From Thermoplasmata archaeon (GTDB taxonomy: Archaea > Thermoplasmatota > Thermoplasmata > Lutacidiplasmatales > UBA184): DNA of 64,000 nt. Below the pieces are notes generated by a model. It saw nothing but the letters and a program-made list of their open reading frames with translations. It did no database searches and was not told the origin of the DNA. Location: positions 1-64,000 of the forward strand of contig JAKIVS010000005.1 in assembly GCA_022750435.1 (NCBI GenBank), written 5' to 3'. A program made the translations under genes and the position numbers. Below, piece by piece: positions 38,131 through 50,453 of the stretch; position 1 is the stretch's first letter; each line of letters starts with the position of its first letter.

Positions 38131-38159
38131 GTGTTTAATAAACATGTTGGGATAAACAC
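38131..38159. promoter_or_regulatory. Operator/promoter of the second VapBC pair
   Basis: GTGTTTA (38131-38137) and TAAACAC (38153-38159) face each other; a second inner GTTTA-A-TAAAC palindrome is at 38132-38142. The AT-rich part is ~22-30 nt before the antitoxin ATG. Confidence 0.6.
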
Positions 38160-38163
38160 ACTC

Positions 38164-38412
38164 ATGTCAGTGAAGACCGTGACGTTGTCCGAGGACGCGT
38201 ACCTTGCCCTCGCGGCGCGCAAGCGGGCGGGCGAGAGCTTCACCGAGGTGGTGAGGCGACTCACGTCGACCGAGCGCTCTCTCCAGGAGTTTGTCGGAGC
38301 TTGGGAGCAAGTCCCCCCCGAGAAACTGGCTCGGCTCGAGGAATGGATCGCACACAGCGACGAATCTTCCCAGGCCGAGATGCTCCGTCTCGGACGCCGA
38401 CGCGGGAAGTGA
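38164..38412 (+). CDS. vapB: VapB-type antitoxin
   Basis: 82 residues, DUF217/VapB family: MSVKTVTLSEDAYLALAARKRAGESFTEVVRRLTS, then an acidic, helical tail that would bind the PIN toxin. The toxin ATG is four bases past its stop. ATG 38164 rather than the in-frame codon at 38131, which lies in the operator. Confidence 0.86.
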   Translation: MSVKTVTLSEDAYLALAARKRAGESFTEVVRRLTSTERSLQEFVGAWEQVPPEKLARLEEWIAHSDESSQAEMLRLGRRRGK

Positions 38413-38416
38413 CGCC

Positions 38417-38803
38417 ATGGCGAGTCTCGACTCCACGTTCCTGATCGACCTCCTTCGGGGTGTCCCCGCGGCGGTCGACCGACTGGAGCGCCTCGAAAAG
38501 CGCCGGGAACCCCGTTGCGTCACGCCCCCGGCCGCCACCGAGGTCATGGTGGGCGCCTGCGCTTTCGGCGGGAGCTCGCTTCGCGCGGCGGAGGACCTGA
38601 TCCGGTCTCTCCAGTGGCTCGAGTTCGACTGGGAATCCTGTCGCCTCGCGGGACGGATTGAAGCCGACCTGATCGCGCGCGGCGAGCCGATGAGTGCCGC
38701 CGACCTGTTCATCGCGGCCGTGAGCCTTCGGCACGGGCAGCGACTCCTCACGCGGGACCGCGGGTTCGCTCGCGTCCCCGGGCTGAAGGTCGAAACGTAC
38801 TGA
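38417..38803 (+). CDS. vapC: VapC-type PIN-domain ribonuclease toxin
   Basis: 128 residues. PIN acidic residues: D5 (SLDSTFLIDLL), E43 (ATEVMVGA), D96 (SAADLFIAAVS) and D114 (LLTRDRGFARVPGL). Would cleave tRNA or mRNA under stress. Co-transcribed with the antitoxin. Confidence 0.9.
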   Translation: MASLDSTFLIDLLRGVPAAVDRLERLEKRREPRCVTPPAATEVMVGACAFGGSSLRAAEDLIRSLQWLEFDWESCRLAGRIEADLIARGEPMSAADLFIAAVSLRHGQRLLTRDRGFARVPGLKVETY

Positions 38804-39002: not shown

Positions 39003-39521
39003 CTAGTGCTTCCTCCGAGTCGTCGTCCGGTCGAGGTTTGGGGGGGCGACCGGGGGGAGTTCGGCCGGCGGGCGTACGATGAGGACCGAGCACCGGGCAT
39101 GGTGCACGACGCCATCGCTGACGCTGCCGAGGAGCAGTCGCCCGGTGGTGGAAAGCCCCCGGGCGCCCATCACGAGCAGATCCGGCCGGCGCTCCTCGAG
39201 GAAGGCGAGAAGCTCCTCGGCGATCGCGCCCTCCCGAGCGTCGCTCGTCACGTGCGTCACCCCCGCGGCGCGGGCGGTCTCGCCCGCCTGGGCGAGTATC
39301 CTCTCGAACTCGCGTCGGTTTTCGGCCAGCACCTGCATCACGGCCCCGCCCGAGTCGGAGTACACCCGCGGGGCGGGCACCACGCCGACGACCGCCAGGG
39401 TTGCCGAGGAGAGCCGCGCGAGGTCGATGGCAACGTTGAGCGCCCGTCGCGCCGGGACCGAGCCGTCCACCGCCACGGCGATGGATCGCAGGGGGCGCGC
39501 CGGGGGTGGGGCCGGCGACAC
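39003..39521 (-). CDS. uspA: Universal stress protein (UspA), copy 1
   Basis: 172 residues from GTG 39521. The family core is complete: LRSIAVAVDGSVPARRALNVAIDLA, then VMGARGLSTTGRLLLGSVSDGVVHHARCSVLIV, where the G-x2-G-x9-GS/T pattern binds ATP. 22 bases after the flavodoxin gene, thus in its operon. A second, clearly similar gene is at 49962-50453. Confidence 0.92.
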   Translation of the reverse strand: MSPAPPPARPLRSIAVAVDGSVPARRALNVAIDLARLSSATLAVVGVVPAPRVYSDSGGAVMQVLAENRREFERILAQAGETARAAGVTHVTSDAREGAIAEELLAFLEERRPDLLVMGARGLSTTGRLLLGSVSDGVVHHARCSVLIVRPPAELPPVAPPNLDRTTTRRKH

Positions 39522-39543
39522 CGGCTCGGCGGAGTCCAACGGG

Positions 39544-40101
39544 CTACGGGTGAGTTTCGCCACGGATCTCCCGGACGAGATGCACGCCGAGTTCCTCGAA
39601 TCGTTGCTCGGTCCCCGGCTCGAGGCGGAAGGTGCCCGAGTCCATCGGCTCCGACCGCGGGGCCACGCCGGCCTCGCCCGGACTCTCGACGATGGCGGAG
39701 GCGTGGAGTACGGGGGTCCGGAGGCCGAGGTGGTACATCGCCGAGTCGATGGCGTTCCCCGCGCCACTCAGGTGGTGGCGGAGTCGCGTGTCGAATGCGA
39801 AGCCGTAGTGGCCCTTCAGGGTGGGGACGTGCTTCAACTCGTGCAGCAGATGGGCCATCGCCCGGCTCGGCCGGATGTGCTCGGTGGGGCAGCCGAACAC
39901 GAGCATGTCGTACGTGTCGAGGGGCCGCTCGTGCGCCCGCGCCACGGGCAGGAGGTCGGTCTTCACCCCCTCCTTCCGGAGCCCCACGGCGAGGTGCTCG
40001 GCGACTTGGCGGGTCTTGCCGTAGTGCGTGTCGTACAGGATCACGGCGGTGCGGAGAGGCTGGTCGTCGGCCCACAGGAGGTCCGGGGACGTATCGGACA
40101 T
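39544..40101 (-). CDS. Flavodoxin-like protein
   Basis: 185 residues. FMN phosphate loop DTHYGKTRQVAEHLA (usual T-x-T-G-N-T), then YDMLVFGCPTEHIRPSRAM and a long C-terminal region. It could carry electrons or reduce a quinone. ATG 40101; minus-strand CTTATCC at ~40129-40135 is a possible TATA box ~30 nt upstream. Confidence 0.84.
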   Translation of the reverse strand: MSDTSPDLLWADDQPLRTAVILYDTHYGKTRQVAEHLAVGLRKEGVKTDLLPVARAHERPLDTYDMLVFGCPTEHIRPSRAMAHLLHELKHVPTLKGHYGFAFDTRLRHHLSGAGNAIDSAMYHLGLRTPVLHASAIVESPGEAGVAPRSEPMDSGTFRLEPGTEQRFEELGVHLVREIRGETHP

Positions 40102-40171: not shown

Positions 40172-40924
40172 CTAGCCGGGTCGCCCCGGGCCGAAGACGC
40201 CGAGCGCGGGGAGCGCCTCGTTCGCCGCGGCCATCGAGCGGTTCGTGAAGGCGCGCAGGTTCCCGAGCTGCTGCGGGTCGAGGGTCAGCGCCGGCCAACC
40301 CCAGTGGACGACGACCGAGCGCCCGGGGTCCGCGTCGGGTACGACGCGAGGGTCGTAGGGGGGCTCCTCTTCGGCGTCGGGCCCCCACGCGAGTCGGCCG
40401 TCCTCGATCCTGAGGGTCGGGCGCACGACCCGCAAGGTCTCGGTCCGACGCTCCCGGACGGTCGCCCACGCGGGGCGGCACGCCTCCAGGTTCGCGAGCG
40501 TCGTCGGCACGTGGCCGGTCACCGCCCCGACCCCCACGAAGGCGACGTGGAACAGGTGGTGCGGGATCGGTCGGGAGGGGAGGTGGCGAAGGAGGCGCTC
40601 GGTGACCGATCGCGGGAGCCCCCGCCGGTGCAGCGCCTCGAGCAGCGGCGGGAAATCGGCCGGGCCGAACGCGTCGAGCAGCTCGTTCCCGATCCAGTAC
40701 GCCTCGACGACCCGCCGGTCGAACGGGTCGAGGCCGTGCTTCGCCCCGATCGCCTGGAGGTAGGGCATGAGCGCCTCGAACCCCTCGAGCGCCCGCCGCG
40801 CCTCGTCGTCGCCCCGGTCCTCGACGATCGCCCGGTACAGGTGCGGCTCCGCCTGAGCGGGTCCACAATAGTGGAGACGGTTCGTGGCGATGCTGAACCG
40901 AGCGGCGAGCGGGACGCCGTCCAT
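40172..40924 (-). CDS. Hydrogenase-associated hypothetical protein (possibly DUF6390)
   Basis: 250 residues. Begins [19 protein letters not shown] and contains [24 protein letters not shown] and [24 protein letters not shown]. From memory it resembles a soluble family (DUF6390) found beside [NiFe] hydrogenase genes in other organisms; this is not certain. One base separates it from the EamA gene stop, and the hydrogenase operon lies further upstream on the same strand, so a link with hydrogenase is plausible. Function unknown. Confidence 0.7.
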
Positions 40925-40925
40925 C

Positions 40926-41879
40926 TCACGCCGTGGGTCGAAGGCGAGCGGCGGAGCGGAGGAACGCGTCGAGCGCCCGGAGGCCGGTCGTTCCGACGAC
41001 CACCGCGATTCCGGCCGCGATCGCGACGGCGCCCGCCGCCTCCAGGGCCGTGGACGGCGAGCCCCGGACGGCCACGGAGAGGAGCCAAGTGACCGGGAAG
41101 CCGAGGACGAGAATCGCCGTGGCGACGCCGAGGTCGACGCGTTTCAGCGCGGCGTACCATGTCCCGACGAAGGCGGTGAGGAGGAGGGCGCTAATCGCCA
41201 CCCAGCTCCACTGGCCGGCCGTGAAGGCCCCGACGGCCGCCACCTGCGACGTGGCGACGAGGTAGCCGACGAGGACGACGGCCCCGATCCCCATCCGGCC
41301 GAGCGCGACGGTTGGGCTCGGGAGGTCCCGAAGGGCCCGTTTGGAGACCGTGTATTCCACCGCCCAAAGCCCCGTCGCCGCGAGGACGAACGCGGAGCCG
41401 TTGGTCCAGATGGGCGTCGTGAGGGCGAGCAGGAGCACGTTGCCGCCGAGCAGGAGCACCGCGGCGAGGGCGGTCGTCCAACGGACCCCCTCGCCGAGGA
41501 CGACGACGCCGAGCACGAGGGCCGGCAGGAACAGCATCCGGTACAGGAAGGAGGCGGTCAGGCCGCCGCCGGCGGCGGTCGCGAGCTGGAGGCCGTGGAA
41601 GAACAGGAGGAACGGAATCGCGCCGCCGAGCACTCCGATCGCCACCAACCGGAGCCAGTCGACGCGGCGCAGCGCCGGGCGCGAAGCCCCGAAAGCGCTC
41701 GCGAGGAAGAGGGGTACCAGCGCCAGGGCGACCACGCCGTTGCGGGCGGTCACGAACGCATCGGAGCTCGTGCCGGCGACGGCGTAGAGGTTCACGAACG
41801 TCGACACGCCGCTCACGACGGCGGTCGTGAAGGCGAGCAGGAGACCGGCCCCGAGGAGGCCGGCGGGGCGTCCGCTCAT
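40926..41879 (-). CDS. EamA/DMT-family transporter, copy 1
   Basis: 317 residues and ten hydrophobic helices in two related halves ([26 protein letters not shown], then [22 protein letters not shown]). Members export amino acids or other metabolites. 85 bases past the HypC stop. A paralogue is at 47809-48936. Confidence 0.88.
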
Positions 41880-41964: not shown

Positions 41965-42252
41965 TCATAGGACAGTGACCTCCCGTCGGGTCGGCGTCGA
42001 CGGGGAGCGCGGGTCGCTTCCGGGCGCGTCCGCGAATTCGGCGGCCACGCGGAGCGTTTCGCGCGCCTCGGCCTCGCCGAGCCGGCGGATCGCGAATCCG
42101 GCCTGGACGATCACGTAGTCCCCGACCTGGGCCTCGGGGACGTAGAGGAGTTGGGCGGTTCGGGTCACCGACCCGAAGTCGACGAGGGCGACCGGGAGCG
42201 CGGGGTCGTCGGCGGTGATCGCGACGATCCGTCCGGGGGTGGCCAAGCACAT
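41965..42252 (-). CDS. hypC: Hydrogenase maturation chaperone HypC
   Basis: 95 residues. The N-terminus MCLATPGRIVAI carries the cysteine essential for carrying the Fe(CN)2CO group and for contact with the large subunit; VDFGSVTRTAQLLYVPEAQVGDYVIVQAGFAI is the OB-like barrel. ATG 42252. HypD, its usual partner, is not in the window. Last gene of the hydrogenase operon. Confidence 0.92.
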   Translation of the reverse strand: MCLATPGRIVAITADDPALPVALVDFGSVTRTAQLLYVPEAQVGDYVIVQAGFAIRRLGEAEARETLRVAAEFADAPGSDPRSPSTPTRREVTVL

Positions 42253-42269: not shown

Positions 42270-42605
42270 TCACTCGGGGCGAGCTCGGAGGCCCTCCGGG
42301 CCCTCCAAGGCAGCCGGGGCGCGTTCGTCCGTCGTCGTGCTGACCGGCGGCACCTCGACCCGGACGAGGACGATTCCTCCGGCCCGCGGGTCGTGGACGT
42401 CGTCCGAACGTTCGACGTCGAGCCGCGAGCCCTCGGCCGGAGTCCCGGCCACCGTGGTCGGCCAGCGGTCCCGGAGGGTGGTCTCGGAGGTGTGGGCGAG
42501 AGCGCCGACCCAGAGCCGGACCACGGAGAACCGGTCGACCGATTCCGTCCGCCCGACCTCGACGAGCTTGCGCCGGAGGTCCCGGAGCATCGCTTCCTCA
42601 TGCAT
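42270..42605 (-). CDS. hypA: HypA-like protein lacking the zinc domain
   Basis: 111 residues from ATG 42605. It begins MHEEAML, keeping the nickel-binding histidine of HypA (MHE), and follows the HypA fold (VRLWVGALAHTSETTLRDRW, GTPAEGSRLDVER, GIVLVRVEVP). The four-cysteine zinc site that HypA uses to sense its partner is missing. It overlaps the protease gene by eight bases, so translation is coupled. A zinc-free nickel chaperone or a HypA decoy is possible. Confidence 0.74.
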   Translation of the reverse strand: MHEEAMLRDLRRKLVEVGRTESVDRFSVVRLWVGALAHTSETTLRDRWPTTVAGTPAEGSRLDVERSDDVHDPRAGGIVLVRVEVPPVSTTTDERAPAALEGPEGLRARPE

Positions 42606-43134
42606 CGGCGAGGACCTCCGGGAACGTTGGTCCATGGAGTCCCAGGTAGCGCCGGACCTCCGACGCCACCTGCTGCGCGACCGGCTCGATGGCGGCGGCG
42701 ACGGCCGCCGACGGCGGGGATCCCGGGTCGAACTGGGCGGCCTCGATCCCGTACAGGATGAGCGTCCCGGGAAGCCGGTCGAGCGCCTGGCCGAGGGCGA
42801 CCGCCTGACCGAGGGAGAAGCCGTGGCTCGAGGTGGCCGAGAGCGGGGTCGGCAAAGGATGGGGCCCGACCTCCCGCCGGACGACCGACCCCGGGGCGCC
42901 CCCGCTTCGGACGGCGTCGACGGCGACGACGAGCTCCCGGCCCTCCCAGAGGTCGATCAGCTCGGTCCCGGCGCCGGTCGCCTCGACGACCCGGCCGACC
43001 CCCCCGAGGAGCGGGCGGACCCGACGGACCACGAGCAGCCCGGCCGCATCGTCCCCCCGGTGCTCGTTCCCGATGCCGACGACGAGCGTCCGCTCGGTCG
43101 GCGGGGGGGCGCGCGGGGACTCCGGCTCCGGCAT
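42598..43134 (-). CDS. [NiFe] hydrogenase maturation protease
   Basis: 178 residues from ATG 43134. M52 family: LVVGIGNEHRGDDAAGLLVVRR (the nickel-sensing glutamate and aspartate), VVAVDAVRSGG, SSHGFSLGQAVALGQ. It removes the C-terminal peptide of the large subunit once nickel is loaded; the alpha subunit here has a 9-residue tail after DPCISCATH that could be that peptide. The gene starts four bases after the alpha subunit stop. Confidence 0.92.
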   Translation of the reverse strand: MPEPESPRAPPPTERTLVVGIGNEHRGDDAAGLLVVRRVRPLLGGVGRVVEATGAGTELIDLWEGRELVVAVDAVRSGGAPGSVVRREVGPHPLPTPLSATSSHGFSLGQAVALGQALDRLPGTLILYGIEAAQFDPGSPPSAAVAAAIEPVAQQVASEVRRYLGLHGPTFPEVLADA

Positions 43135-43138
43135 CGTC

Positions 43139-44434
43139 CTAGTCCCGGGCCAGGTCGAGCGTGAGGAAGTGCGTCGCACAGGAGATGCACGGGTCGTGGT
43201 TGCGGATCGCCCGCTCGCACGCGTCGGTCAGGTGCGCGTCGTCGAGCTCGAGGGAACGCGTGACCACTTCCCGCAGGTCGTCTTCGATCCGCTTCTGGTT
43301 CTGCGAGGTGGGGGCCACGATCTTCGCCTCCTCGATGAGGCCGGTGGCGTCGAGCTGGTACCGGTGGTAGAGCAGTCCCCGGGGCGCCTCGGTCGCCGCC
43401 GCGCACCCCGGGACGTCGAACGGGCCGGCGGCGACCTCGAACGGTCGCTCCGGCGGGCGGTATCCGTCGAGGAGGCGGAGGGCCTCCTCGCACGCCTGGA
43501 CGATCTCGACCGACCGGACCAGGACGCTGCGGAACGGGTTGCGGACGACCGGCTCGAGGCCGACCTCCCGCGCCACGGCGTCGGCGCGCGGGAGGAGCCG
43601 GTCGCGGTTGAGGGCGTAGCGGGCCATCGGGCCCACCAGGTAGGAGCCCCCGTCGCGGCGCATCGAGTGAAGGGCGTTCGAGTGGGGGACCTGGAACTCC
43701 CGGAACTCTTCCTCGAAGCGGGTCGCCGGAATCCGGAGGCCCCGGCTCGAAACGACCTCGCCTTCGTTCATCGGGTACTCCTCCGGGTGGCGAAGGGCGA
43801 CGAACTCGTAGTCCTCCTCGACGGCCGGGAACGGGAGACCGGCGGCGAACCGGACGGTCTCCTCGGCGATCCCGAGCGCCTCCTCGAGCACGGGGCGCAG
43901 GGGTTCGAGCTCCTCGCGCGACGGGCACCGGTAGAAGCCGCCGACCCGGACGTTTACCGGGTGGATCTCCCGTCCGCCCAGCGCCGTCATGATCGCGTTG
44001 CCGGCCTTCTTCAGCCGGAGACCCCGCTGGACGAGGATCGGATGGTCCTTCGCCATCCGGATCGCGTCGGGGTAGCCGAGGAAGTCGGGGACGTGGAGCA
44101 GGTAGACGTGGAGCGCGTGGCTCTCGATCCACTCCCCGCAGTACAGCATCCTCCGCAGGGCCCGGACGGCGGGCGTCACCCGAAGCCCGAGCCCGTGCTC
44201 GAGGGCATGGCAGGCGCTCATCTGGTAGGCGACGGGGCAGATTCCGCAGATCCGGGCGGTGATGTCGGGGGATTCGAGGTAGGAGCGCCCGCGGAGGAAC
44301 GCCTCGAAGAACCGGGGCGGCTCGAAGATCCGAAGTTCGACCTCCTCCACCGTCCGGTCGTGGATCCGGACCCGGAGCGCCCCCTCCCCTTCCACGCGGG
44401 CGAGGTAGTCGACGGCGATCGTCCGGTCGGTCAC
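43139..44434 (-). CDS. hyhL: Group 3b [NiFe] hydrogenase alpha (large) subunit
   Basis: 431 residues, the catalytic subunit holding nickel and iron. L1 motif [14 protein letters not shown] and L2 motif [11 protein letters not shown] give the four ligand cysteines. [16 protein letters not shown] and the group 3 block [20 protein letters not shown] fit NAD(P)-linked sulfhydrogenase (HydA/HyhL) enzymes. GTG 44434 overlaps the delta stop by four bases. Confidence 0.96.
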
Positions 44435-45228
44435 GGTCCCCCCCCGGCCGGGACGTCCGTGGCCCCGGCGGCCGCCCGGAACGAGGGCGCGTTGGCGTTG
44501 AACGTACGGTAGATCCGGTGGACCGCCGGCGGGTCCATGCCGAGCTCGAGGAGCTTCCCCCGGAGGGAGGGAGCGTTCGGAGAGTCCTGCGGCCCGAAGC
44601 AACCGTAGCACCCCCGGTCGAACGACGGGCAGAGGGCGCCGCATCCGGCCTGGGTCACCGGCCCGAGGCACGGTGTGCCGCGCGCGACGAGGACGCAGAC
44701 GGTTCCACGCCGCTTGCACTCGACGCAGACGCTCTCGGTCGGGACGTTCGGGGTCCGGTGCCCGAGGAAGGCGGTGATCACCTCCAGGAGCTGTCCCTTC
44801 TGGATCGGGCAGCCGCGCAACTCGAAGTCGACCGGCACGTGGTCCCCGATCGCCGTGGAGGTGGCGACGGTCCGGATGTACTCGGGCCGCGCGTAGACCA
44901 CGCGGGTGTACTCCCGAACGTCGGCGAAATTCCGCAGCGCCTGGATCCCGCCGGCGGTGGCGCACGCCCCGATCGTGACGAGGTGCCGGGCGTTCGCCCG
45001 GATCGCCTGGATCCGCTCGGCGTCGCCCGGCGTCGTGATTGACCCCTCGACGAGGGCGAGGTCGTACGGCCCGTCGAGGACGGCGCTCGACGCCTCCCGG
45101 AAATCCGCGATCTCCACGCGGTCGGCGACCGGGAGGAGTTCGTCCTCGCAGTCGAGGAGCGTCAGCTGGCAGCCGTCGCACGAGGCGAACTTGAAGATGC
45201 CGAGCTTCGGCCGGGCCGCCGCGGTCAT
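44431..45228 (-). CDS. hyhS: Group 3b [NiFe] hydrogenase delta (small) subunit
   Basis: 265 residues. It carries electrons from the active site through iron-sulfur clusters: [91 protein letters not shown] hold ligands for three [4Fe-4S] clusters. No Tat signal, so cytoplasmic. Confidence 0.96.
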
Positions 45229-45229
45229 C

Positions 45230-46099
45230 TCACACCTCCCGGACGGCGAGGAACGGCGCGATCTCCCGGTAGCGGAACACCGGGCCGTGGCGACAGACGA
45301 ACGACGGGCCGAACTGGCAGTGGCCGCAGAGACCGACGGCGCACTTCATGTTCCGTTCCATCGACAGCCAGATCGCGTCCGCGGGGACCCCGCGCGCGAC
45401 CAGCGCCTTCGCGGTCAGCTTCATCATGATCTCCGGACCGCACAGGAAGGCGACCGTGTTCGCGGGCTCGATGCGGACGTCGGGGAGGCGGGCGGTGACG
45501 AGCCCGACGTCACCGTACCAGTCGCGGCCGGCCGTGTCGACGGTGGTCTGGAACCGGAGGTCCGAGCGTTGCCGCCATCCTTGGATCTCGGCGTAGTAGA
45601 CGAGGTCCTTCGGGGTCTTCGCCCCGTAGATCAGCTCGACGCGGCCGTACTTCGACCGCTCCCGGAGGATCTCGTAGAGCGCGGGGCGGAGCGGTGGCAG
45701 GCCGAGGCCTCCCGCGACGAGGACGACGTCCCGTCCCGCCGACTCCCGAACGGGCCAGCCGGTTCCGTAGGGGCCGCGGACGCCAACGACGCCGCCGGGG
45801 GCCGCCTCCGAGAGGGCGAGACTGACCTTTCCGGCGGCTCGCACGGTGTGGAGGTACCGATCCGGGGCGGCCGGGTCGCCGCTGATCGAGATGGCCGCTT
45901 CGCCGACGCCGTACACATACAGCATGTTGAACTGGCCGGGCCGGAACGACAGCGGACCGCGGCGCTCCCTCGGGGCGAGGTCGAGCGTCACGGTGTCTGC
46001 GGTCTCGCCGGTCCTTGAGCGAACCTCGAACGGCACCGGCACGATGCCGGGAGGCCGGTCGATGCCGGGCGGTCCCGGCGGCTCCCCGTTAGCGCCCAT
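45230..46099 (-). CDS. hyhG: Hydrogenase gamma subunit (FAD/NAD(P) reductase)
   Basis: 289 residues. FAD domain ([20 protein letters not shown]), NAD(P) domain ([32 protein letters not shown]), and a C-terminal [2Fe-2S] group [23 protein letters not shown]. It exchanges electrons with NAD(P)H. The cNMP-domain gene overlaps it by 11 bases upstream. Confidence 0.94.
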
Positions 46100-46553
46100 G
46101 GAGGTCGAGCAGTTGGAGCCGCGTATTCTCGAGGCGCTGGGCGATGACGGGAAGGAGCCGGTGGAGGAACCGGTAGCCGTCGGCCGGTCGGTCGTCGAGG
46201 AGCTGGCGGAGCGGTCCCGCGGCGAGCCCGAGGGCCCGGGTCGGCTTCACGGCCCGTGCGTCGATCCGCCACCGGTGCGGGGAGAAGAGCCACGACCAGC
46301 CGAGGACCTCGCCCGGACCGAGCGTCTGGACCGTCGTCCGGGGCCGGTCGGGCACGATGATCTCGAGAGCGACCTTCCCGGAGAAGAGGGCGAGGAACTC
46401 ATCGGCAGGGTCCCCCTCCCGCACGATCAGCGCTCCGGCCTCGAACGTCCGGGCGTACGCCTTCTCGGTGAGCCGGGCGAGGAACTCCGGGTCCATGTCG
46501 CGGAAGAACCGGTGGTCGGCGAGCCGGAGCTCCTCGGGCGCCTCGTCGCTCAT
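46089..46553 (-). CDS. Cyclic-nucleotide-binding-domain protein without HTH (hydrogenase-associated)
   Basis: 154 residues of a Crp-like beta-roll: FFRDMDPEFLARLTEKAYARTFEAGALIVREGDPADEFLALFSGKVAL, then GPGEVLGWSWLFSPHRWRIDARAV at the place of the phosphate-binding cassette. The protein stops at the C-helix, so there is no DNA-binding domain. It lies inside the hydrogenase operon, overlapping beta by four bases. A direct control of the hydrogenase by nucleotide binding is inferred. Similar genes occur in other group 3b clusters. Confidence 0.88.
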   Translation of the reverse strand: MSDEAPEELRLADHRFFRDMDPEFLARLTEKAYARTFEAGALIVREGDPADEFLALFSGKVALEIIVPDRPRTTVQTLGPGEVLGWSWLFSPHRWRIDARAVKPTRALGLAAGPLRQLLDDRPADGYRFLHRLLPVIAQRLENTRLQLLDLHGR

Positions 46554-47737
46554 CCTCCCGTCCCTCCGGCCGCCGTGCGGACCCCGGGCATCGCCCGGAT
46601 CGCCGCGACCTCCTCGGTGAGGTCGATCCCGACGGGGCACCAGGTGATGCACCGACCGCAACCAACGCAGCCGGAGCGGTCGAACTGGTCGTACCACGTC
46701 GCCAGCTTGTGCGTCATCCACTGACGGTAGCGCGACGGAGTCGATTTCCGGACTGGCGAGCCGTGCAGCTCGGTGAACGCCGAGTGGAAGCACGAATCCC
46801 ACCGGCGCCACCGTTCGACGTGCTCCCCGGTGAGGTCCGGCACCTCCTCGGTCGAGTGGCAGAAGCAGGTCGGACACGCCATCGTGCAGTTGGCGCACGA
46901 CAAGCACCGCTCGGCGACGGACGCCCATCGGGGATGTTCCGGGGTTTCGACGAGCAGGTCCCGGATCTGGTGGAGGTCCATCGACCGGCCCATCGACGCG
47001 GACGTACGCGCCACGACCGCGCCCGCGGCCCCCAGGTCCGGGGCGGAGGCGGGGCGGAGGGGCACGGAGTGGAGGACCGAGGCCCCGGCGGGGGAACCGA
47101 CCTCGACGAGGAACCGGTGGCGGCCCTCGCCGAGGAGTTCGGTCAGAGCGAGGTCGTGGTCGCCCCCGACGGCCGGACCCGTCCCCATCGAGGCGCAGAA
47201 ACAGGTTCCGCCGGCGACGCCGCACTGCACGGCGACCCGGAGGGTCCGGGCCCGTCGAGCGGCGTACCCCGGGTCGCCTCCCGACCGGAACACCCGGTCC
47301 TGGATCGCGATCGCGGCGAGCTCGCAGGCCCGGACGCCGAGGAAGACGAACGCCGGCCCGTCCGTCGGCTCGGCGTCGACGCGGAAGGAGCCGTCGGTCC
47401 GATGGGCCGTCCAGAGTCGTTCCCGGGACGGGAACAGGTATTTCTTCCAGCTCTGGGGGCCGACCGCGTAGCCGAACAGCGCGTCATCGTTCCGGCGTTC
47501 GAGGCGGTACGTTCCTGCCTCCTGACGGTCGGTCCAGCCGATCGGAAGGTCGGACTCCTGGTGGATCTCTCCGTACACGATGGCGCCGTCCCGGACGATC
47601 GGGCCGACGACCCGATAGCCGGCCGTACCGAGCGCCGCCAGGAACCGGGGGAAGTCCGACCGCTCCAGGGTGTGCCGGCTGCCGACCGAGAGGAGCTCCC
47701 CGGACGGGGCGATGGCGGTGGGGGGAGTGGCGGTCAT
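46550..47737 (-). CDS. hyhB: Hydrogenase beta subunit (ferredoxin-like)
   Basis: 395 residues from ATG 47737. C-terminal two [4Fe-4S] signatures: RCLSCANCTMACPTCFC and GCVGCGRCITWCPVGIDL. The N-terminal domain (VFLGVRACELAAIAIQDRVF) matches the beta subunit of sulfhydrogenases (HydB/HyhB). First gene of the operon. A TATA-like element lies at 47783-47789, giving a short leader. Confidence 0.94.
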   Translation of the reverse strand: MTATPPTAIAPSGELLSVGSRHTLERSDFPRFLAALGTAGYRVVGPIVRDGAIVYGEIHQESDLPIGWTDRQEAGTYRLERRNDDALFGYAVGPQSWKKYLFPSRERLWTAHRTDGSFRVDAEPTDGPAFVFLGVRACELAAIAIQDRVFRSGGDPGYAARRARTLRVAVQCGVAGGTCFCASMGTGPAVGGDHDLALTELLGEGRHRFLVEVGSPAGASVLHSVPLRPASAPDLGAAGAVVARTSASMGRSMDLHQIRDLLVETPEHPRWASVAERCLSCANCTMACPTCFCHSTEEVPDLTGEHVERWRRWDSCFHSAFTELHGSPVRKSTPSRYRQWMTHKLATWYDQFDRSGCVGCGRCITWCPVGIDLTEEVAAIRAMPGVRTAAGGTGG

Positions 47738-49961: not shown

Positions 49962-50453
49962 CTACTTCGCCGGGGAACTCGCGCCGCGGGACCGCTTCGG
50001 AGCGGGGGCCGGGGCGGGCAGGGGCCGGACCACGAGTACGGAGCAGTGGGCGTGGTGGAGGACGCCGTCGCTGACGCTTCCCACGAGGAGGCGGCCGGTG
50101 GTGGAGAGCCCGCGGGCGCCCATCACGAGCAGGTCGGGGTTCCGCTCCTCGAGGAATTGGAGCAACTCCTCGACGACGATCCCCTCCCGAACCTCCGTGG
50201 ACACCATGGCGACCCCCGCCTTCCGGGCGCTCTCCGCCGACGTCCGAAGGAGCGCCTCGACGGCCTTTCGGTTCGAGGCGAGGACTTCGAGCAGGACTCC
50301 CCCTTCGTCCGAGTAGAGGACCGGCGCCGGGGCGACGCCGACGATCGTCAACGTCGCCGAGGCGAGCTTGGCAAGCGCCGTGGCCGACTCGAGCGCCCGG
50401 TCGGCGGACTTGGAGCCGTCGACGGCGACGGCGATCGAGCGGAGCGCGGTCAT
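49962..50453 (-). CDS. uspA: Universal stress protein (UspA), copy 2
   Basis: 163 residues. LRSIAVAVDGSKSADRALESATALAKLASATL, LLQFLEERNPDLLVMGARGLSTTGRLLVGSVSDGVLHHAHCSVLVV, then an A/P-rich basic tail. By eye about 60% like copy 1 at 39 kb; the GARGLSTTGR ATP site is identical. CGTTAAATCGG on the minus strand, ~29 nt upstream, fits a TATA box. Confidence 0.92.
   Translation of the reverse strand: MTALRSIAVAVDGSKSADRALESATALAKLASATLTIVGVAPAPVLYSDEGGVLLEVLASNRKAVEALLRTSAESARKAGVAMVSTEVREGIVVEELLQFLEERNPDLLVMGARGLSTTGRLLVGSVSDGVLHHAHCSVLVVRPLPAPAPAPKRSRGASSPAK

Follow-up and report, generated by a model that had tools for sequence, protein, structure and literature searches.

A gene at 42270–42605 on the minus strand of the 64,000-nucleotide stretch of Thermoplasmata DNA analysed here (the window) encodes a real variant of HypA that lacks the zinc site, for which we found no name in use. 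The variant is widespread and no peculiarity of the window genome, and it occurs together with HypB and zinc-bearing HypA in few of the genomes compared. In our estimate, with a probability of about 0.6, the zinc-less protein acts as a HypB-independent, stand-alone nickel chaperone of group 3b hydrogenases and replaces the pair of zinc HypA and HypB. The product is a one-domain HypA that retains the nickel-binding domain (N-terminal amine, His2, and Glu3); the zinc domain, located between two beta strands in classical HypA, is gone, and a conserved loop joins the strands. According to our proposal, the protein would hand nickel directly to HyhL, the large subunit of the group 3b enzyme, before its maturation, dispensing with HypB, the nucleotidase from which classical HypA receives its nickel, and His38 would complete the nickel site inside one small domain. 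The zinc-less form suggests a simpler mode of nickel loading, and a zinc-free HypA that tracks the absence of HypB would provide a naturally minimal nickel chaperone, with which the purpose of the zinc domain and of HypB can be tested. A 2019 review describes the zinc site as a property of all HypA proteins (PMC7055735); we found no report of a zinc-less HypA in the literature searched, a body that leaves out most subscription journals.

A one-domain HypA in a hydrogenase operon

The open reading frame starts with an ATG at 42605, its stop codon ends at 42270, and the 111-residue product begins with MHEEAML. It contains no cysteine and so lacks the two-CxxC zinc site of HypA. As a sequence-only reading of the window had proposed, the four-cysteine module is replaced by a short loop: VERSDDVHDPRAGGIVLV occupies the place of the CxxC...CxxC module of zinc HypA, with the loop DDVHDPRAGG replacing the zinc module. 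The Pfam HypA model PF01155 matched the protein with 29.9 bits, above its gathering cut-off of 28.9, over profile positions 1–67 of 112 only, while its score of 12.2 bits with the NCBIfam equivalog model TIGR00100 falls far short of the 88.1 required there. A profile search for membership of another family returned Pfam HypA for all 42 members scanned, any other family matching at most six of the 42. A frameshift, an assembly error, or a chance reading frame was ruled out because the same zinc-less protein is found in 14 other genomes of the genus, at 34–58% identity. A search of the window's genome (84% complete) for a second, complete HypA found none, the gene at 42270–42605 being the sole HypA match.

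The gene lies within a hydrogenase operon encoded on the minus strand. Upstream of it are genes for a hydrogenase maturation endopeptidase of the HycI/HyaD type (42598–43134; PF01750, 2.5e-8; TIGR00072, 4.4e-27; start inferred, reading frame open from 43179), the hydrogenase large subunit HyhL (43139–44434; PF00374; top NCBIfam hits ShyA/HydA, with scores under the cut-offs; RICGIC, EAPRG, and DPCISC kept), the small subunit HyhS (44431–45228; PF01058; NF040831 ShyD, 5.7e-48, below cut-off), the FAD/NAD-binding subunit HyhG (45230–46099; PF00175 and PF10418; sulfhydrogenase gamma models below cut-off), a cyclic-nucleotide-binding domain protein present in most of the 3b operons seen here (46089–46553; PF00027, 4.8e-15; start inferred), and the iron-sulfur subunit HyhB (46550–47737; PF17179; NF040833 HydB, 3.4e-37, below cut-off; start inferred). 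Downstream are genes for a HypC-like chaperone (41965–42252; PF01455, 1.9e-22; start inferred at MCLATPG) in which Cys2 is kept and the His of VxVHxGFA is replaced by Gln, an EamA-type membrane transporter (40926–41879; PF00892, 1.6e-24), and a DUF6390 protein (40172–40924; PF19927, 8.7e-40) with a HypC-like C-terminal domain at about residues 147–234 that includes Cys149 and His207. The presence of HyhB, HyhG, HyhS, and HyhL in one operon, with all active-site cysteines kept, is the arrangement of group 3b NAD(P)-linked [NiFe]-hydrogenases (sulfhydrogenases); the enzyme would belong to group 3b, the sulfhydrogenase and group 3b models being its best matches, though below their cut-offs. The protease frame ends at 42598, giving the 8-base overlap with the start of hypA that had been noted before, and the claim that hypA is a fixed part of the 3b operon held up in related 3b loci, in which the gene as a rule directly follows the protease gene (best 80 of at least 581 loci). 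The operon is flanked on both sides by minus-strand genes for universal stress proteins, at 39003–39575 (Pfam) and 49962–50453 (by eye only), and a VapB-like antitoxin and PIN-domain toxin pair lies at 38131–38803 on the plus strand (Pfam).

For a closer view of the protein, 56 zinc-less sequences were aligned, three of them from genomes present twice; one sequence that runs off its contig (L105) and one broken copy (L136) were left out. None of the 56 has a CxxC...CxxC arrangement, and cysteine is absent from 44, occurs once in 11, and twice in one. His2 is present in all 56 and Glu3 in 55. The consensus of 42 members reads MHExSL...LGALSHxS...GTxAEGAxLxIxxSxDxxDPxAQxIxLxSxExE and includes the conserved loop S-x-D-x-x-D-P-x-A-Q. 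The AlphaFold model (pLDDT 87.5; confidence high to about residue 90, with a loose tail beyond) has the order helix-strand-helix-strand-loop-strand, comprising a helix at 2–21, a strand at 28–33, a helix at 41–51, and strands at 61–66 and 78–84. The 14 best Foldseek rows were HypA chains, the first five with E-values of 3.6e-4 to 9.1e-4, in agreement with a nickel-domain fold, and a profile search matched solved HypA with an E-value of 3e-10. The order of elements in the model and the Foldseek matches to HypA indicate that the zinc domain has gone from between the last two strands and that the loop closes the gap. The earlier suggestion that the MHE nickel-binding start and the fold are retained thus found support in the conservation of His2 and Glu3, the family match, and the predicted fold. 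Compared with HypA/HybF (PF01155, TIGR00100), the protein shares the MHE start, the nickel-domain fold, and the place in a hydrogenase operon, but differs in the loss of the zinc domain and its CxxC pairs, in the presence of His38, and in that HypB was mostly not found in the genome. HypA of T. kodakarensis (3a43, 5aun, 5yy0), which is among the best structural matches, differs in having a zinc domain, the nickel ligand His98, and a HypB partner; it has been crystallised with HyhL.

Distribution of the zinc-less form and its relation to HypB

The zinc-less HypA was present in 15 of the 37 genomes of the Thermoplasmata genus, and the 15 proteins, once aligned, all proved to lack the zinc site; a further match, in G052, was set aside with six stops in its reading frame. 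We also examined related 3b loci obtained by an HyhL scan of GTDB genomes (the top 80 of at least 581 relatives; 9 Thermoplasmata MAGs and 71 bacterial loci). Among these 80, the fetched flanks contained the zinc-less form at 43 loci from many phyla (8 Thermoplasmata, 35 bacteria including the broken copy L136) and zinc HypA at three (L128, L152, and L153); neither form was found in the flanks of the other 34, in part because contigs end. Where bacterial flanks in this set were long enough, the usual order was protease, zinc-less hypA, hypF, hypC, hypD, and hypE, with no hypB, and no HypB-like reading frame was found in the carriers' loci. Zinc-less plasmid examples from Pandoraea and Paraburkholderia are named simply HypA at NCBI, and the difference is therefore hidden in the annotation. 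In Candidatus Jettenia ecosi, the zinc-less hypA frame is broken (L136, 11786–11992), and no HypD was found in the assembly.

To relate the two forms to HypB, we compared 50 bacterial 3b genomes, namely all 35 zinc-less carriers plus 15 chosen from the other 36 (from the best 80 of at least 581 loci); most are MAGs and possibly incomplete. HypB was searched for with the model of its GTPase family, TIGR00073; HypB of T. kodakarensis is of the ATPase type. HypB of the GTPase type scored over the cut-off in 2 of the 35 carriers versus 12 of the 15 non-carriers, with a Fisher value of 2.9e-7 that is inflated by kinship because the genomes are not independent. Full-length zinc HypA was found in the same 2 of 35 carriers versus 13 of 15 non-carriers, the other two of which (L118 and L144) gave partial matches; with these counted as present (15/15), the Fisher value is 6e-11, likewise inflated by kinship. 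L149 and L165 have both sets, the zinc-less form and HypB with zinc HypA, and L117, L118, and L144 have neither the zinc-less form nor HypB. The best quick tree of the 50 rows requires at least 14 changes of the zinc-less label and 12 of HypB, and well-supported branches force only four changes of the zinc-less label across all 89 rows. The quick HyhL tree yields only four well-supported independent pairs, too few for significance; in these, HypB never changed in the same direction as the zinc-less form and went in the opposite direction in 2.4 on average.

Compared with the usual group 3b hydrogenases, the carriers of the archaeal genus differ in having no HypB over the cut-off (0/15), and HypB of the GTPase type was likewise absent over the cut-off from all 37 genus genomes, G000 included. 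The possibility that a standard zinc-bearing HypA always accompanies such genes did not hold: it was not found at full length in 33 of the 35 bacterial carriers or in 14 of the 15 genus carriers. Where weak PF01155 matches in the genus left the N-terminal positions uncovered, we read them as unrelated zinc ribbons.

An alternative to which we give a minor but real share is that the zinc-less HypA works with another nucleotidase encoded elsewhere, either a HypB of the ATPase type or a GTPase resembling UreG. Ten bacterial carriers have GTPase matches of 60–78 bits, below the cut-off, which we read as UreG-like and which might stand in for HypB, and some archaeal HypB homologues are reported to hydrolyse ATP (PMC12134894). 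However, the carriers' loci contained no HypB-like reading frame, and the Microbulbifer carriers L125, L127, L130, L145, and L147 gave no match to the HypB model (GTPase type) even at an E-value of 0.001.

Maturation of the iron site in Thermoplasmata

All [NiFe]-hydrogenases are said to need six Hyp proteins (PMC12134894). In the genus, however, HypD was found in 1 of 37 genomes (G032) versus 18 of 24 genomes outside the genus in the same search. Among the 15 carriers, one has HypD and one has a full HypF, both being G032, and this too sets them apart from known group 3b systems; neither protein was found in G000. The remaining HypF matches in genus carriers cover only part of the protein, stay under the cut-off, and in our view resemble Kae1 and YrdC. 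In G032, zinc HypA, hypC, hypD, hypE (recognised by its PRIC end), and hypF lie on another contig than the 3b operon, beside which no hypC, EamA, or DUF6390 gene was found; DUF6390 was not found anywhere in the G032 genome. That contig (L102, G032:C20) also carries a second, different [NiFe]-hydrogenase.

The large subunits themselves are not degenerate. RICGIC, EAPRG, and DPCxSC, with all four active-site cysteines, are kept in 18 of 18 Thermoplasmata large subunits (a set from which L097, L103, L113, and three duplicates were left out), and a PTSQN-type motif is present in 16 of these 18 versus 64 of 71 bacteria. In known enzymes, the Fe(CN)2CO group is enclosed by the EAPRG arginine and the PTSQN region, so the pocket seems prepared for the usual site. 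All 15 HypC proteins found at Thermoplasmata loci retain Cys2, but only 6 of them retain the VxVHxG histidine (8 have Gln and 1 has Tyr), versus 30 of 30 HypC proteins adjoining hypD.

These data allow the reading, which we regard as tentative and rather less likely to be right than wrong, that maturation of a [NiFe]-hydrogenase in Thermoplasmata carriers dispenses with HypB, HypD, and HypF: the zinc-less HypA would insert nickel by itself, the HypC variant and DUF6390 would build or handle the iron side, and the EamA transporter might import a precursor. If it is true, the site may have CN and CO ligands from a new source, or none. If Thermoplasmata are truly without HypD and HypF, the six-Hyp requirement would need revision, and this would be a larger discovery than the zinc-less HypA. 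We give a minor but real probability to the alternative that HypB, HypD, and HypF are present in Thermoplasmata and missing from the assemblies, being plasmid-borne or unbinned. The hyp genes of Sulfobacillus acidophilus are on a plasmid, plasmids get lost from MAGs, and the window genome is 84% complete. On the other hand, HypD went unmatched in 14 of the 15 genus carriers, among them G028, listed as 100% complete in 20 contigs, and in 9 of 9 Thermoplasmata genomes of the HyhL scan (best 80 of at least 581), of which three are genus-set genomes and the other six are distinct by DNA identity. The same search succeeded in 34 of 41 bacterial genomes that had no HypD near the locus (L169 left out), and 29 further bacterial loci have HypD in the flank (best 80 of at least 581).

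DUF6390 is likely, by its context, a hydrogenase maturation factor. It was present in 14 of the 15 genus carriers and in 6 of 6 further Thermoplasmata; in total, 20 of the 21 Thermoplasmata 3b genomes tested have it, and HypD was found in none of these 20. It was absent from 7 of 7 tested genus genomes without zinc-less HypA. Two of 41 bacteria (L152 and L164) also have it, again without HypD. Among 74 genomes, all 22 DUF6390 bearers thus have no HypD, and DUF6390 occurs in none of the 40 HypD-bearing genomes. A strict substitution of HypD by DUF6390 was nevertheless rejected: DUF6390 adjoins hypF, hypC, hypD, and hypE on one plasmid from Sulfobacillus acidophilus and another from Mycobacterium intracellulare, and it can therefore be at most a candidate substitute, in Thermoplasmata. 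Neither HypD nor DUF6390 was found in the assemblies of the bacteria L112, L119, L136, L157, and L183, possibly owing to gaps in these assemblies.

The predicted C-terminal domain of DUF6390 tentatively has a HypC fold; HypC came first with Foldseek (probability 1.00, E-value 0.02), with VIA (Z 5.2 over 71/71 residues, the next row at 4.2), and in a PDB profile search (E-value 0.04), and hhalign gave 77% with an E-value of 2e-5, and we keep the assignment tentative because each score is middling. The domain has a Cys and a His at places matching those of HypC (Cys149 and His207, invariant in 8 rows), but DUF6390 differs from HypC in adding an N-terminal helical domain of about 145 residues, in which Cys20, His122, His123, and His126 (PHHxFH) are invariant in the 8 rows. 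The word DUF6390 occurs in no paper of the literature searched. The EamA transporter adjoins hypC in 15 distinct Thermoplasmata loci and is followed by DUF6390 in 14, L094 ending first; it was not found in L101, L152, and L164. It is a possible importer for hydrogenase maturation.

Proposed nickel site of the zinc-less form

His38 is present in 52 of 56 zinc-less rows (49 of 53 without duplicates) and absent in four, versus 0 of 17 zinc HypA proteins. In a profile alignment with H. pylori HypA, position 38 falls two residues before Asp40, a nickel ligand of that protein (PMC7055735). In the T. kodakarensis HypA–HypB complex, the N-terminus and His98 of HypA hold the nickel (PMC7055735), and His98 falls beyond the part retained in the zinc-less form. 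Because His98 is thus out of reach and His38 lies in the loop that bears Asp40 in H. pylori, His38 may supply the missing nickel ligand. The structural response to nickel that the sequence-only reading had ascribed to the zinc module is reported for H. pylori, but does not extend to T. kodakarensis, in which the zinc domain is described as unchanged upon nickel binding (PMC7055735).

It is improbable that the protein is instead a holding factor, which would bind the N-terminal tail of immature HyhL and keep the site open while nickel enters unaided. The T. kodakarensis HyhL–HypA structure, in which the HyhL N-terminal tail touches the HypA nickel site (PMC7055735), is in keeping with such a role, whereas the near-invariance of His2 and Glu3 is as expected of a nickel site. 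That the gene is a decaying, functionless remnant of hypA is very unlikely: changes of the zinc cysteines are reported to cut hydrogenase activity in H. pylori (PMC7055735) and one copy is broken, but the nickel end and the new loop are conserved over many phyla at a near-constant place in the operon, pointing to selection on the zinc-less HypA.
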